64,000 nt of DNA from the NCBI RefSeq assembly GCF_026167665.1, contig NZ_CP098740.1, positions 6,076,001-6,140,000 of the forward strand, written 5' to 3'. This document shows, piece by piece, positions 61,065 to 64,000 of this stretch. Position 1 is the stretch's first letter. Each line of letters starts with the position of its first letter. Under the pieces are notes generated by a model that had not been told where the DNA came from, ran no database searches, and was given only the letters and a program-made list of their open reading frames with translations. Position numbers and translations under genes: made by a program. This DNA comes from Streptomyces drozdowiczii. Its GTDB lineage: Bacteria; Actinomycetota; Actinomycetes; Streptomycetales; Streptomycetaceae.

Positions 61065-62096
61065 ATGGGTGCGAGAAGGCGGAAATTGAAGACACATGAG
61101 GATGTTCCGGGGGAGTTCCTGGACAGTGGACTTCTCCGACGCGTGTACGGATTCATGCTCGACGCCAGCAGGTGTGACGGGGACGCGCTCGATGTGGAGA
61201 CGGCGTGTGCACAGCTGGAGGTGCGCGAGGAGCACTTCCGGGAGGCGCTGGCCGACCTGGTCGCCCTCGGCCTGCTGGTGAACCGGCCGGGGCGCGGCTT
61301 CGTCGCCGTGTCCCCCGACGAGGCGACCACCCGCGTACTGCTCCCCCTGGAGTCCGAACTGCGCACCCGGCGCGCGCGGGTGGAGGAGGTCAGGCGCCGC
61401 CTGGTGTCGTTCTCGCCGGTCTTCGACGCCAGCCTGCTGGCGCGCGAGAACCGGCGCCAGATCGAGACCATCGACAACCTCCCCGACGTGCGGGCCGCGA
61501 TCGCCGAGCTGTCGGCCAAGGCCGGCCGGGAGATCCTCACGGCCCAGCCGGGCGGCGGCCGTCGCGAGGACGTGCTGGTCGAGGCGGCGCCGCGGGACTA
61601 CGACACCCTCGACCGGGGCGTGGTGATGCGGATCCTCTACCAGCACACCGCCCGCTCGAGCCGGGGCACCCAGTCCTACGTGGAGCAGGTCACGCGCCGC
61701 GGGGCCCAGGTGCGCACGCTGGACGACCAGTTCATGCGGTTCCTGGTGTTCGACCGGGAGTGCGCGGTGTTCGCGAACCCCGCCGACCCCAACGGCGCGG
61801 TGGTGGTGCGCAATCCGTTCGTCGTCGCCTTCATGGTGGAGACGTACGAGCGCCTGTGGCTGACCGCGGAGCCCTTCGAGGCCGACGGCGACGCCCAGCC
61901 GGAGATCATGGACGACCTCAAGGACGCCATCGTCCGCCTGCTCACGGCGGGGATGACCGACGCGGCCGTGGCCCGCCGCCTGGGGATGTCCGTACGCACC
62001 TGCCGGCGCCACGTCGCCGAGATCATGACGTCCCTCGACGCCGAGAGCCGCTTCCAGGCCGGTTACCTGCTCGCTCTGCAGGAACAGCCCAAGTGA
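61065..62096 (+). CDS. LuxR family regulator with TrmB-like N-terminal domain
   Basis: 343 aa, ATG 61065 (MGARRRKLKTHEDVPGEF). N-terminal winged-helix-like part: LRRVYGFMLDASRCDGDALDVETACAQLEVREEHFREALADLVALGLLV. A middle phospholipase-D-like/sensory region of about 150 residues contains RGVVMRILYQHTARSS, VTRRGAQVRTLDDQFMRFLVFDRECAVF. The C-terminal LuxR HTH is TAGMTDAAVARRLGMSVRTCRRHVAEIMTSLDAESRFQAGYLLA. Not a response regulator or an AHL receptor. It sits 263 bases upstream of the exported-peptide gene and likely controls it. Confidence 0.9.
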   Translation: MGARRRKLKTHEDVPGEFLDSGLLRRVYGFMLDASRCDGDALDVETACAQLEVREEHFREALADLVALGLLVNRPGRGFVAVSPDEATTRVLLPLESELRTRRARVEEVRRRLVSFSPVFDASLLARENRRQIETIDNLPDVRAAIAELSAKAGREILTAQPGGGRREDVLVEAAPRDYDTLDRGVVMRILYQHTARSSRGTQSYVEQVTRRGAQVRTLDDQFMRFLVFDRECAVFANPADPNGAVVVRNPFVVAFMVETYERLWLTAEPFEADGDAQPEIMDDLKDAIVRLLTAGMTDAAVARRLGMSVRTCRRHVAEIMTSLDAESRFQAGYLLALQEQPK

Positions 62097-62196
62097 CCTG
62101 CGGTGACGCGCCAGTGCCGCCGCGTCGCCACGGTTCCTTCACACCGCAGCCCGATTGGCTCCCCCTCGTCCGGCTTGCCCCTTTCCTTCTCGTGGA

Positions 62197-62221
62197 CATC
62201 AAGTTGCCATGCAGCTTGATG
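62197..62221. promoter_or_regulatory. Dyad and promoter upstream of the exported-peptide gene
   Basis: Perfect repeat CATCAAG-N11-CTTGATG. Its right arm contains a -35-like TTGATG (62216-62221), 17 bases before TACTCG (62239-62244). A natural site for the preceding LuxR regulator or another factor acting on the peptide/ligase operon. Confidence 0.45.
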
Positions 62222-62359
62222 CTCCACCGGTTTTTCACTACTCGGCCCGCGCTCCTGGCACGTTGATGCCAGAACGGTGAGCGGCCCGCAGCGCGGTACG
62301 GCGGAATTCGCGAGAACCGGTGACAAGGCGCGGCAACGGACGTAGTGAGGGGCTGGACA

Positions 62360-62503
62360 GTGCATCGCTTCGGCAAGGTGACTGCTGCGGGAATCGCGAT
62401 CATCGTGGCCGTCCTGGGCAGTGCGGAGGTTTCCGCCGCAGGGCAGCGGGGAATTCCCGCGACCGCGACCGCCGCTCCGGCCGGCGACACCGGCTGGGGA
62501 TAA
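62360..62503 (+). CDS. 47-aa exported peptide precursor ending GDTGWG
   Basis: GTG 62360. The sequence has a basic start (MHRFGKV), a hydrophobic core TAAGIAIIVAVLGSAEVSA consistent with a signal peptide, then a short tail AGQRGIPATATAAPAGDTGWG. Signal cleavage near SAA would release about 20 residues. The stop is only four bases before the ligase GTG, so the two are translationally coupled. No homologue of known function recognised. Candidate signal or modified peptide. Confidence 0.6.
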   Translation: MHRFGKVTAAGIAIIVAVLGSAEVSAAGQRGIPATATAAPAGDTGWG

Positions 62504-62507
62504 TTCC

Positions 62508-64000
62508 GTGTCGAATTCGATCAATGACCTGTACCGGAGCTTGGCGGAGCACCCCGAACGCCGGATGCGTTTCGTGTCCTTCGCCGGGAAACTCGAAACG
62601 AGGAATTTCCCGGAGATTTACAAGGACGTCATGGAACTCATGGACGAGTTGCGGGAATCCGGGTGCCGGGCCGGTGACCTGGTGGGGGTGACGGGCCCCA
62701 ACTCCTACGAGTGGGTCCTCGCGGACCTGGCCCTGCTCGGCCTCGGCTGCGTCCCGGTGGCCCTGGCGCTGGAGCAGGGCGCCGACGGCCGGGCGCTGGC
62801 GGCCCTCGCCGACGCGTACGGCCTCGCGGCGGTCTTCACGACCAGGGCGCCCGCGCCGGACAGAGAACGACCGGCCGGAGAACTGCCGAATGGTGAGCTG
62901 CCGGACGGGGAGCTGCCGGACGGCGTCGCGGCGCTCACCGCGCGGCCGTTGAAGCTCGTCCGGCGCGACGTCCCGGCCGGTGCGCGACCGACCCTGCCGG
63001 GGGACGCCTTCACCATCGCCTTCTCCTCGGGCACCGCGGGCAGCAAGAAGGGCCTGCTCATGTCCGCAGCGGGGGTGGAGAACACCATGCGCATCTCCGC
63101 CGAGGCGTGGCGGCTCACCGCCGACGACGACCTGCTGATCGTGATGCCGTTCTCCAACTTCCAGCAGCGGTACCTGCTGTACACGGCCGTGCGGTACGGC
63201 ACCGACGTGACGGTGGTCCCCCCGGAGCGGATGCTCCAGAAGCTGCGCGAACTCGCGCCCACGGTCGTCCTCGGGCCGCCGTCCTTCTTCGAGCTGCCCG
63301 CCAACCGGGTCGGCTCGGCGGGCCCGCGCGAGCGGCTGCCCTACCTCCTGGCCACGGCCCTGCACGCGCTCGTCCCCGGGCGGGCCGGCCGCCGGCTGCG
63401 GGCCCGTCTCGGGCGCCGCTGGACGGGGGTGTACGGGTCGCGGGTGCGGCTGATGCTCACCGGCTCGGCCCCGGTGCCCCCGCGCACGGTGCGGGTGTTC
63501 CAGCGCCTGGGCGCACCGCTCTTCGAGGTTTACGGGAGCAGCGAGATCGGCTGGATCGCCTTCAACCTGCCCGGCGGGCACCGGATCGGCAGCGCCGGGC
63601 GCCCGGTGGACGGGGTGCGCGTGGACGTCGCGGACGACGGCGAGATCACCGTGCGCACCGGACTGCCCCAGTGCCTGGGGTACGTCTTCGAGGGCGTCGG
63701 CACGCAGGACGCGGTCTTCCTCGGCGACGGCCGGATCGTCACCGGGGACCTCGGGGAGTTCGACCGCGCGGGCTTCTTGCGGCTGAAGGGCCGCAAGAAG
63801 AACGTGATCATCACGCGCAGCGGGGTGAAGATCAACCCCGAGGAGCTGGAACTCGCCCTGGAGAAGGCATGCCCCGGCGTGCGGGCGATGGTCGCGGCGC
63901 CGGACGGCGGCGGACTGCTGAGCTGCGTCGTCTGGGTCGAGGACGTGGCGGACGCGGACCGGGTCGCGCAGGTGGAGGCGTACCTGGAGGAGGCGAACGG
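62508..64000 (+). CDS. AMP-dependent acyl-CoA/acyl ligase (ANL superfamily), 3' end outside the window
   Basis: GTG 62508; at least 497 residues, still open at the window edge. It starts (M)SNSINDLYRSLAEHPE. ANL motifs: DLVGVTGPNSYEWVLADLALLGLGCVPVAL, A3 P-loop AFSSGTAGSKKG (Ser/Thr-rich), EVYGSSEIG (A5), ITRSGVKINPEELE and the GRKKNVI hinge (A8). The catalytic Lys near the C-terminus has not been reached. It adenylates a carboxylic acid and passes it to CoA or a carrier protein. Coupling to the peptide gene and the preceding LuxR suggests the start of a biosynthetic cluster. Confidence 0.88.
   Translation, partial: MSNSINDLYRSLAEHPERRMRFVSFAGKLETRNFPEIYKDVMELMDELRESGCRAGDLVGVTGPNSYEWVLADLALLGLGCVPVALALEQGADGRALAALADAYGLAAVFTTRAPAPDRERPAGELPNGELPDGELPDGVAALTARPLKLVRRDVPAGARPTLPGDAFTIAFSSGTAGSKKGLLMSAAGVENTMRISAEAWRLTADDDLLIVMPFSNFQQRYLLYTAVRYGTDVTVVPPERMLQKLRELAPTVVLGPPSFFELPANRVGSAGPRERLPYLLATALHALVPGRAGRRLRARLGRRWTGVYGSRVRLMLTGSAPVPPRTVRVFQRLGAPLFEVYGSSEIGWIAFNLPGGHRIGSAGRPVDGVRVDVADDGEITVRTGLPQCLGYVFEGVGTQDAVFLGDGRIVTGDLGEFDRAGFLRLKGRKKNVIITRSGVKINPEELELALEKACPGVRAMVAAPDGGGLLSCVVWVEDVADADRVAQVEAYLEEAN
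62880..62924 (+). repeat. Three tandem 15-bp repeats in the ligase gene
   Basis: Unit GARCTGCCGRAYGGN occurs three times in frame, encoding ELPxG three times (ELPNG, ELPDG, ELPDG). It forms a flexible insertion between the first subdomain and the P-loop part of the ligase. Length variation between strains would be expected. Confidence 0.7.

Follow-up and report, generated by a model that had tools for sequence, protein, structure and literature searches.

Paired DTGWG-type peptides and TrmB-LuxR regulators in Streptomyces: a probable peptide pheromone and its receptor

What is the function of a 47-residue open reading frame (ORF) that lies between a regulator gene and the first enzyme gene of a biosynthetic cluster? 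The question is raised by a stretch of 64,000 nucleotides from Streptomyces drozdowiczii (the window; positions 6076001-6140000 of a single-contig genome of 7.39 Mb), where a regulator with TrmB-like and LuxR-type parts (TrmB-LuxR), a tiny ORF ending in DTGWG and an ANL acyl ligase follow one another. Comparison with related loci indicates that DTGWG-type precursors very probably give rise to a secreted peptide pheromone, and that the adjacent TrmB-LuxR protein would be its dedicated intracellular receptor. The features concerned are the following.

61065..62096, plus strand: TrmB-LuxR one-component regulator, proposed peptide receptor (ORF of 343 aa).
62197..62221, no strand assigned: palindrome CATCAAGTTGCCATGCAGCTTGATG, proposed operator (from conservation and a genome scan).
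62360..62503, plus strand: precursor peptide of secreted type, 47 aa, ending ...PAGDTGWG (GTG start; TAA stop at 62503).
62360..62437, plus strand: signal-peptide-like N-terminus, residues 1-26, with an AxA-type site between VSA and AG (by eye and hydrophobicity scan, not SignalP).
62486..62500, plus strand: DTGWG core, proposed mature signal, exact ends unfixed (from conservation and copy comparison).
62508..64000, running on to window coordinate 64154, plus strand: ANL acyl ligase, first enzyme of the cluster (full length in the genome).

Is the short ORF a gene or a chance frame? The original prediction described a tiny ORF of signal-peptide type whose stop lies four bases from the ligase start, and these coordinates hold, with the ligase GTG at 62508 following the TAA. 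A ribosome-binding-like stretch, GAGGGG (62347-62352), lies 7 nt 5' of the peptide's GTG, and a longer ORF could alternatively begin at a GTG at 62345. When nine precursors found beside related regulators are compared, DTGWG forms the only invariant columns; of the C-terminal GDTGWG that had been singled out, the last five residues are therefore conserved and the preceding glycine is not. A profile of the nine, searched against 5.8 billion proteins with 8000 candidates scored, yielded 43 proteins at E<=10, of which 27 bear a Streptomyces name, with up to four core copies. P0029, P0030 and P0032 are close homologues of the window peptide (68-77% identity) and keep the C-terminal GDTGWG. Precursors that carry a database name are mostly called 'hypothetical protein', with a few cases of 'secreted protein' or '5'-nucleotidase'. 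A lack of conservation of the frame or C-terminus in relatives had been named as the finding that would speak against the prediction; because other genomes show the frame and its DTGWG again next to regulators of this kind, sequence comparison argues that the ORF is more than chance.

How constant is the pairing with the regulator? A DNA pattern for two adjacent DTGWG copies matched in 23 of 392 Streptomyces genomes; its reversed control gave 16 matches in 12 genomes, so chance hits occur in this search. Twenty-three distinct loci were read (two further places in the pattern listing were left out) and sorted by eye into 18 with a secreted-type short ORF and five chance frames, secretion being judged here and throughout by hydrophobicity only. 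A TrmB-LuxR match lies in the 1.5-kb flanks of all 18 secreted-type ORFs, partial in L070 and L079, and of none of the five chance frames. Eight pairs of peptide and regulator matches lie on contigs of equal length and very likely share one contig each. A pattern for a single terminal DTGWG matched in six of 101 genomes, comprising two real precursors and four chance frames, and a search of plasmid records gave no match to the peptide. At L095/L070 (genome G063) the peptide is intact and the adjoining regulator matches in part, its reading frame appearing to be interrupted.

The core is mostly D-[S/T/I/L]-x-W and is present in 1-10 copies per precursor, varying between species. Within 1.5 kb of a regulator match, 52 distinct precursors, selected in part by a hydrophobicity filter, contain 186 D[ST]xW cores, and 39 of them have 2-10 copies. 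Are the copies within a precursor alike? Core positions 2 and 3 are identical in all 416 within-precursor copy pairs, while agreement between precursors is 0.50 and 0.42; copy pairs agree at 0.29-0.42 in the flanks of the core and at 0.62 at core position 5. In none of the 39 multi-copy precursors do the copies differ at position 2 or 3; 5000 shuffles reached no more than 19 and 16 uniform precursors at these positions. All 339 differences in core codons 1-4 are synonymous, and the absence of non-synonymous ones is conditioned: the copies were chosen by D[ST]xW, positions 1 and 4 were unable to vary, the degenerate copies GTGRG, ETGWG and DRGWG were excluded, and the fair test lies in positions 2 (S/T) and 3. 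With a [DEN]xxW pattern, 103 and 102 of the 104 multi-copy precursors in 141 loci of the RTKPTM type described below, some of them duplicates, are homogeneous at positions 2 and 3 respectively; these loci hold 24 combinations of the two residues, from TG and ST to IG and LG. Among 120 database precursors, 110 have a single core tetrapeptide.

Such conservation bears on the suggestion that the ORF exists only to couple translation to that of the ligase or to attenuate the ligase. The four-base spacing would suit this role, as would the ribosome-binding-like GGGG for the ligase that sits within the last codons of the peptide. However, the core is conserved with synonymous change where the peptide gene diverges from the regulator and no ligase is matched, and we give coupling alone almost no credence.

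The window pair appears to be a cluster-linked relative of a locus that is widespread in Streptomyces. Precursors with an RTKPTM leader have a match in 182 of 246 Streptomyces genomes (E<=0.001), and the first 30 of these loci to be read all contain the ORF and a TrmB-LuxR match. The peptide ORF is present in 141 of 144 loci of this type, most of which were picked by peptide match, and all 141 have a divergent regulator. RTKPT is probably untranslated, because the DNA of the leader, GTGAGGACGAAGCCGACTATG, resembles a ribosome-binding site followed by ATG. The locus adjoins clpB in six of six wide stretches (one of which, L098, supplied search queries), with dnaJ and grpE on the opposite side in five; dnaK is also among its neighbours. 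S. drozdowiczii itself carries, at 3693190 of its genome and next to TrmB-LuxR genes, a degenerate version with DLAWG/DVGWG. A passage of PMC2631018 gives clpB of S. coelicolor as SCO3661, hspR as SCO3668 and dnaK as SCO3671, and an entry in PMC3282765 places SCO3665 and SCO3666 among the LuxR-family proteins. SCO3664, described as a 'regulator', was a transposon target in which insertions raised actinorhodin more than 50-fold (passage in PMC6585502). From their position, rather than from a reading of the S. coelicolor genome, we infer that SCO3664-3666 are the regulators of the clpB-side locus.

Does the regulator read the core? The strongest evidence comes from residue 157 (P0001 numbering; motif E-x-L-T-x-Q-P). 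In 31 RTKPTM-type loci, Val157 accompanies Thr at core position 2 (10 loci) and Met157 accompanies Ser (21 loci). The rule T-V, S-M was fixed in writing on these before 100 more loci were fetched. In the held-out set, cores with Thr have V in 31, L in one and an unreadable residue in two; those with Ser have M in 41 and are unreadable in five; those with Ile have V in 11 and are unreadable in one; and those with Leu have V in three, A in two and I in one. With identical precursors collapsed (ten pairs, one of which, L152/L214, had straddled the two sets), both sets together give T-V in 42 of 43 and S-M in 62 of 62 readable cases, 71 of these 105 being held out.

These counts take the regulator nearest to the peptide's ATG, an assignment that is independent of the residue but was adopted after earlier scorings had been seen. 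A first scoring, which required QPG, covered 45 of the 100 loci and seemed to break the rule (S-V 10, S-M 6); it was faulty, in that many Met-type regulators lack QPG (EMLTVQPS) and the script moved on to an adjacent paralogue. When the loci were rescored by ORF ends, 122 of 141 yielded a regulator, with M 58, L 6, V 1 and gap 2 for Ser, and V 37 and L 3 for Thr. The S-V exception in this second scoring, L151, proved on checking to be the wrong paralogue. The rows dropped from the final scoring are L150, L276 and L283, which have no ORF, and eight that are unreadable at 157 (five S, two T, one I).

Could shared ancestry produce this association? Column 157 has a normalised mutual information of 0.97 with core position 2, and the next best of 201 columns reaches 0.20. 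With columns 150-215 left out of the regulator tree, the core and residue 157 need 22 changes each, counted as inferred switches. Seven independent pairs on well-supported branches split 7:0 in 194 of 200 random pairings and 6:0 with one tie in the other six (median p 0.016). Outside the RTKPTM-type locus, I or V is found in 14 of 15 regulators with a DT core, leaving aside that of the window, which has Ile, and the sole regulator with a DS core (L130) has M. The smaller Val may admit the extra methyl of Thr, and the longer Met may fill the space over Ser. For core positions 3 and 5, the strongest associations are with columns 164-170, 201-202, 209 and 219-220 (values 0.44-0.65, with ancestry uncontrolled), and seven of eight and eight of eight of their top columns, respectively, fall inside the effector domain. 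Of the proposed steps, the Thr/Ser reading at residue 157 is the best supported.

The covariation weighs on a further alternative, in which the precursors are antimicrobial or repeat-type ribosomally synthesised and post-translationally modified peptides (RiPPs) and TrmB-LuxR merely regulates their production. Multi-copy cores are known in RiPPs, and P0003 has a weak, sub-threshold match to the thiovarsolin family (15.9 bits, cut-off 35). Yet nothing would oblige a protein that only regulates production to covary with the core, as residue 157 does over the 22 switches, and no tailoring-type enzymes were seen in the chaperone neighbourhood, the neighbours of most other loci lying outside that scan. 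Six short proteins scanned against NCBIfam gave no above-cut-off match, whether to RiPP precursor families or to others. The window cluster does have an AsnB-like protein and dioxygenases, which may serve another product. We regard a RiPP as unlikely.

Must the peptide leave the cell at all? Covariation indicates recognition and not travel between cells, and export, release and import would each be further steps, so the peptide might stay inside the cell or in its membrane and act there on the regulator, as a ligand or an antagonist. Against this stand the signal-peptide-like N-termini, which are also present in precursors that a profile, rather than hydrophobicity, had retrieved, and the multi-copy design, which suits the release of several identical peptides. 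A ligand confined to its own cell therefore seems improbable to us, to much the same degree as a RiPP.

What kind of protein would the receptor of a secreted pheromone be? The AlphaFold2 (AF2) model of the regulator (pLDDT 90.7) contains a winged helix-turn-helix (wHTH), a PLD-like domain and a LuxR HTH, arranged as follows.

Residues ~21-81: wHTH.
Residues 84-114: helix.
Residues 133-267: PLD-like effector domain.
Residues 275-340: LuxR HTH.

The TrmB-like N-terminus assigned to this LuxR-family protein at the outset is borne out: a profile of 75 regulators matched archaeal TrmBL2 in the PDB (E 5e-11, profile positions 11-251), and the C-terminus matched LuxR HTH, PF00196, at 23.9 bits (cut-off 23.5). 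The Pfam TrmB models gave no match to the regulator at E<=0.1. Comparison of the AF2 model with PDB structures found the TrmB-type layout, a wHTH followed by a PLD-like effector domain, and no tetratricopeptide repeat (TPR) peptide-binding domain; this was a second look by VIA-align, with folds missed by Foldseek beyond its reach. A Pfam scan of P0001 for an acyl-homoserine-lactone autoinducer-binding domain found none, only HTH families and weak DUF7436/DUF6879. The ligand domain is thus predicted to have a TrmB/PLD-like fold, and the covariation points to a peptide, not a sugar, as its ligand.

Where would such a regulator act? The proposed target is the palindrome CATCAAGnTGCCATGCAGCTTGATG. 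The form CATCAAG[C/T]TGCCATGCAGCTTGATG, or a relative with <=6 mismatches, precedes the peptide gene in every one of the 11 distinct peptide-bearing loci of the window regulator's clade that were scanned. It was not found in L013, L105 and L014, where no peptide was found (the upstream side of L013 is short, because the stretch starts 408 bp before the match), nor in L104, L090 and L094, which have the peptide and belong to other regulator clades; a reversed control gave no match in the same 18 stretches. The regulators of L105 and L013 are close (63-66% identity), and their peptide may have been lost or may be located elsewhere. Four of seven independent upstream regions share a 9-mer, which two of 1000 simulations reach. 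Across the 7.39-Mb genome, <=3 mismatches yield two sites, both in the cluster, and none for the control. One is at window 62197; the other has one mismatch and precedes the AsnB-like gene (G000:C1:6147133), where a second site is present in all three cluster-bearing genomes (L009 12133; L011 19508, with 4 mismatches; L012 20079). Conservation establishes the site, and we take it as a putative operator that the regulator would bind.

Does the peptide also belong with the ligase and the cluster behind it? The original prediction had proposed the peptide as a marker of a cluster continuing past the window, and an ordered cluster does follow, conserved in two other species.

L009 3508-16758 (window 62508 onward): biosynthetic cluster with two acyl carrier proteins (ACPs), ANL ligase, amidohydrolase, PhyH and TauD dioxygenases and AsnB-like protein.

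Past the full-length ligase (L009 3508-5154; Pfam AMP-binding, E 1.2e-38), the order is ACP, amidohydrolase, PhyH-like dioxygenase, second ACP, beta-ketoacyl synthase (KAS) III-like protein, GNAT and BtrH-like protein, then Na/H antiporter, phosphopantetheinyl transferase, asparagine-synthase-like (AsnB-like) protein and TauD-type dioxygenase. Both ACPs, PhyH and a GMC-type oxidoreductase were assigned by reading translations; in an NCBIfam scan of six cluster proteins, the AsnB-like one alone exceeded the cut-off (generic asparagine synthase). From the ligase to the AsnB-like gene, both gene content and gene order are shared by Streptomyces sp. LUP30 (L011) and S. rhizosphaerihabitans (L012), with the peptide ORF between regulator and ligase as in the window; the L011 cluster has no match to phosphopantetheinyl transferase. 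Tight coupling and this shared order would suit joint action of peptide and ligase, for example peptide acylation, as first suggested. But among 11 other distinct peptide loci the ligase is matched (tblastn, E 1e-4) in L011 and L012 (= L106) only, the other nine having no match, and one class of peptide locus is set among chaperone genes where examined. The suggestion of joint action is not supported by this comparison, and acylation is about as improbable as coupling alone; the peptide's link to the ligase is incidental, and its link to the regulator is not.

How might a pheromone loop operate? The original idea that the regulator senses a peptide signal draws strong support from the pairing, the multi-copy precursors, the receptor-core covariation and the conserved palindrome, and from these we infer a route of export, cutting, import, binding, activation and density dependence. 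The precursor would be exported by its signal peptide and the core released by proteolysis. The core would return to the cytoplasm, presumably through an oligopeptide permease, and bind the PLD-like effector domain, where residue 157 would read core position 2, as the strong covariation suggests. The peptide-bound regulator would then act at the palindrome that precedes the peptide gene. Since that gene heads the ligase operon and the AsnB-like gene has a palindrome of its own in front of it, the loop would amplify itself and turn on the cluster as density rises.

Beside other TrmB-LuxR subfamilies there are divergent short ORFs with related cores, and one related core is found outside the genus.

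L122: 4 x DNGWS, divergent short ORF; Ala at 157 in alignment A2.
L130: 2 x DSGWG, divergent short ORF.
L108: DTEWT, divergent short ORF.
L126: DDEWH, divergent short ORF; Leu at 157.
L155: DTGWD, in another family of the phylum, outside the genus.

In another actinobacterial family, L162 (G487) has an 81-aa secreted-type ORF with two IFDIG copies, upstream and divergent of a TrmB-LuxR gene, possibly the same design with an unrelated core. Short ORFs ending VPTPHW lie ~360-410 bp upstream, on the opposite strand, at L113, L118 and L168 (L113 and L168 are one locus); beside a different TrmB-LuxR subfamily, they are possibly another peptide class. P0045 (134 aa, secreted-type) has DDTSWG, DDTGWG and DDSGWG repeats, is unlike the Streptomyces leaders and may come from another phylum. 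In the order of G662, 29 of 30 genomes have no regulator at E 1e-40.

Several observations weigh against a pheromone and its receptor. The window precursor holds one core copy. Core position 5 is constant in just 28 of the 39 multi-copy precursors, leaving the active length unfixed, and of the 120 database precursors seven mix two or three core types and three have N-x-x-W in place of D-x-x-W. Regulator-first surveys found a recognisable peptide within 1.5 kb in one of 22 loci (L029-L050) and five of 40 (L107-L146), so that many TrmB-LuxR proteins have no such peptide nearby; both peptide and palindrome are missing from L013 and from L105, a member of the window's clade, in the stretches examined. 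Taken by itself, the 9-mer TGCCATGCA does not stand out in the window (one match vs 0.29 expected). The covariation has its exceptions in L294 (Leu), the eight unreadable rows and L155, where a DT core meets Ala. The support as a whole comes from sequence and predicted structure rather than experiment, and that for secretion from hydrophobicity rather than a trained predictor.

What would a peptide signal mean for Streptomyces? Signalling in this genus is usually told as butyrolactone chemistry. Gamma-butyrolactones are named as Streptomyces signals in a section of a 2026 review (PMC13220807), and acyl-homoserine lactones have been reported (PMC10883386). We lean slightly towards a wider proposal: a genus-wide, hyper-diverse set of D-x-x-W pheromones with a peptide-sensing TrmB-LuxR class, in which the code Thr-Val157/Ser-Met157, with further positions perhaps read via 164-173 and 201-209, would separate species, the clpB-locus pair would restrain antibiotic production (SCO3664 in S. 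coelicolor), and biosynthetic clusters would have taken over copies of the module as switches of their own. If true, this genus-wide code, legible at a receptor position, would provide a new receptor class for peptide signals, a means of addressing silent antibiotic clusters directly by adding the right pentapeptide, a test case for pheromone/receptor co-divergence, and candidates for the peptide signals thought to be imported by BldK-type permeases. Antibiotic-producing Streptomyces would then possess a peptide language of which we found no description in the open-access literature.

Is the system already known under another name? A title-level search of open-access PMC literature, outside which most subscription papers lie, found no description of this peptide-receptor family, which is coherent and fits no described system tested or found there. 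Unlike archaeal TrmB/TrmBL2, the regulator has an added C-terminal LuxR HTH, and a peptide is proposed in place of a sugar ligand. It shares that HTH with LuxI/LuxR acyl-homoserine-lactone systems and differs from them in having no autoinducer-binding domain by Pfam. Pheromones of the yeast alpha-factor type are eukaryotic: a secreted precursor repeats one short pheromone in tandem, and the receptor is a G-protein-coupled receptor of the membrane; the tandem short cores are alike, and no homology is claimed. The BldK oligopeptide permease is associated with an unidentified 655-Da extracellular Streptomyces peptide signal, thought to be strain-variable (passage in PMC9640686). The proposed pheromone would likewise be an extracellular Streptomyces peptide, a link between the two not being established: fragments of 3-12 residues beyond residue 25 with a mass of 652.5-657.5 Da were absent from P0277 (S. 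coelicoflavus) and P0281 (S. tendae), a comparison covering these two species and not the precursor of S. coelicolor, and identity of core fragments with the 655-Da signal is not supported.

The closest parallel is with the RRNPP systems of Firmicutes (Rap, Rgg, NprR, PlcR, PrgX), in which the precursor gene adjoins the receptor gene and the receptor has a TPR peptide-binding domain. In these systems, a secreted peptide is taken up again through an oligopeptide permease and binds its receptor in the cytosol (passage in PMC13220807). The actinobacterial loci likewise place a secreted-type precursor gene, as judged by hydrophobicity, adjacent to the gene of the proposed receptor, as at all 18 of the pattern loci. 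Unlike RRNPP, they pair precursors of up to 10 core copies with a TrmB/PLD-like receptor that carries a LuxR HTH in place of TPR.

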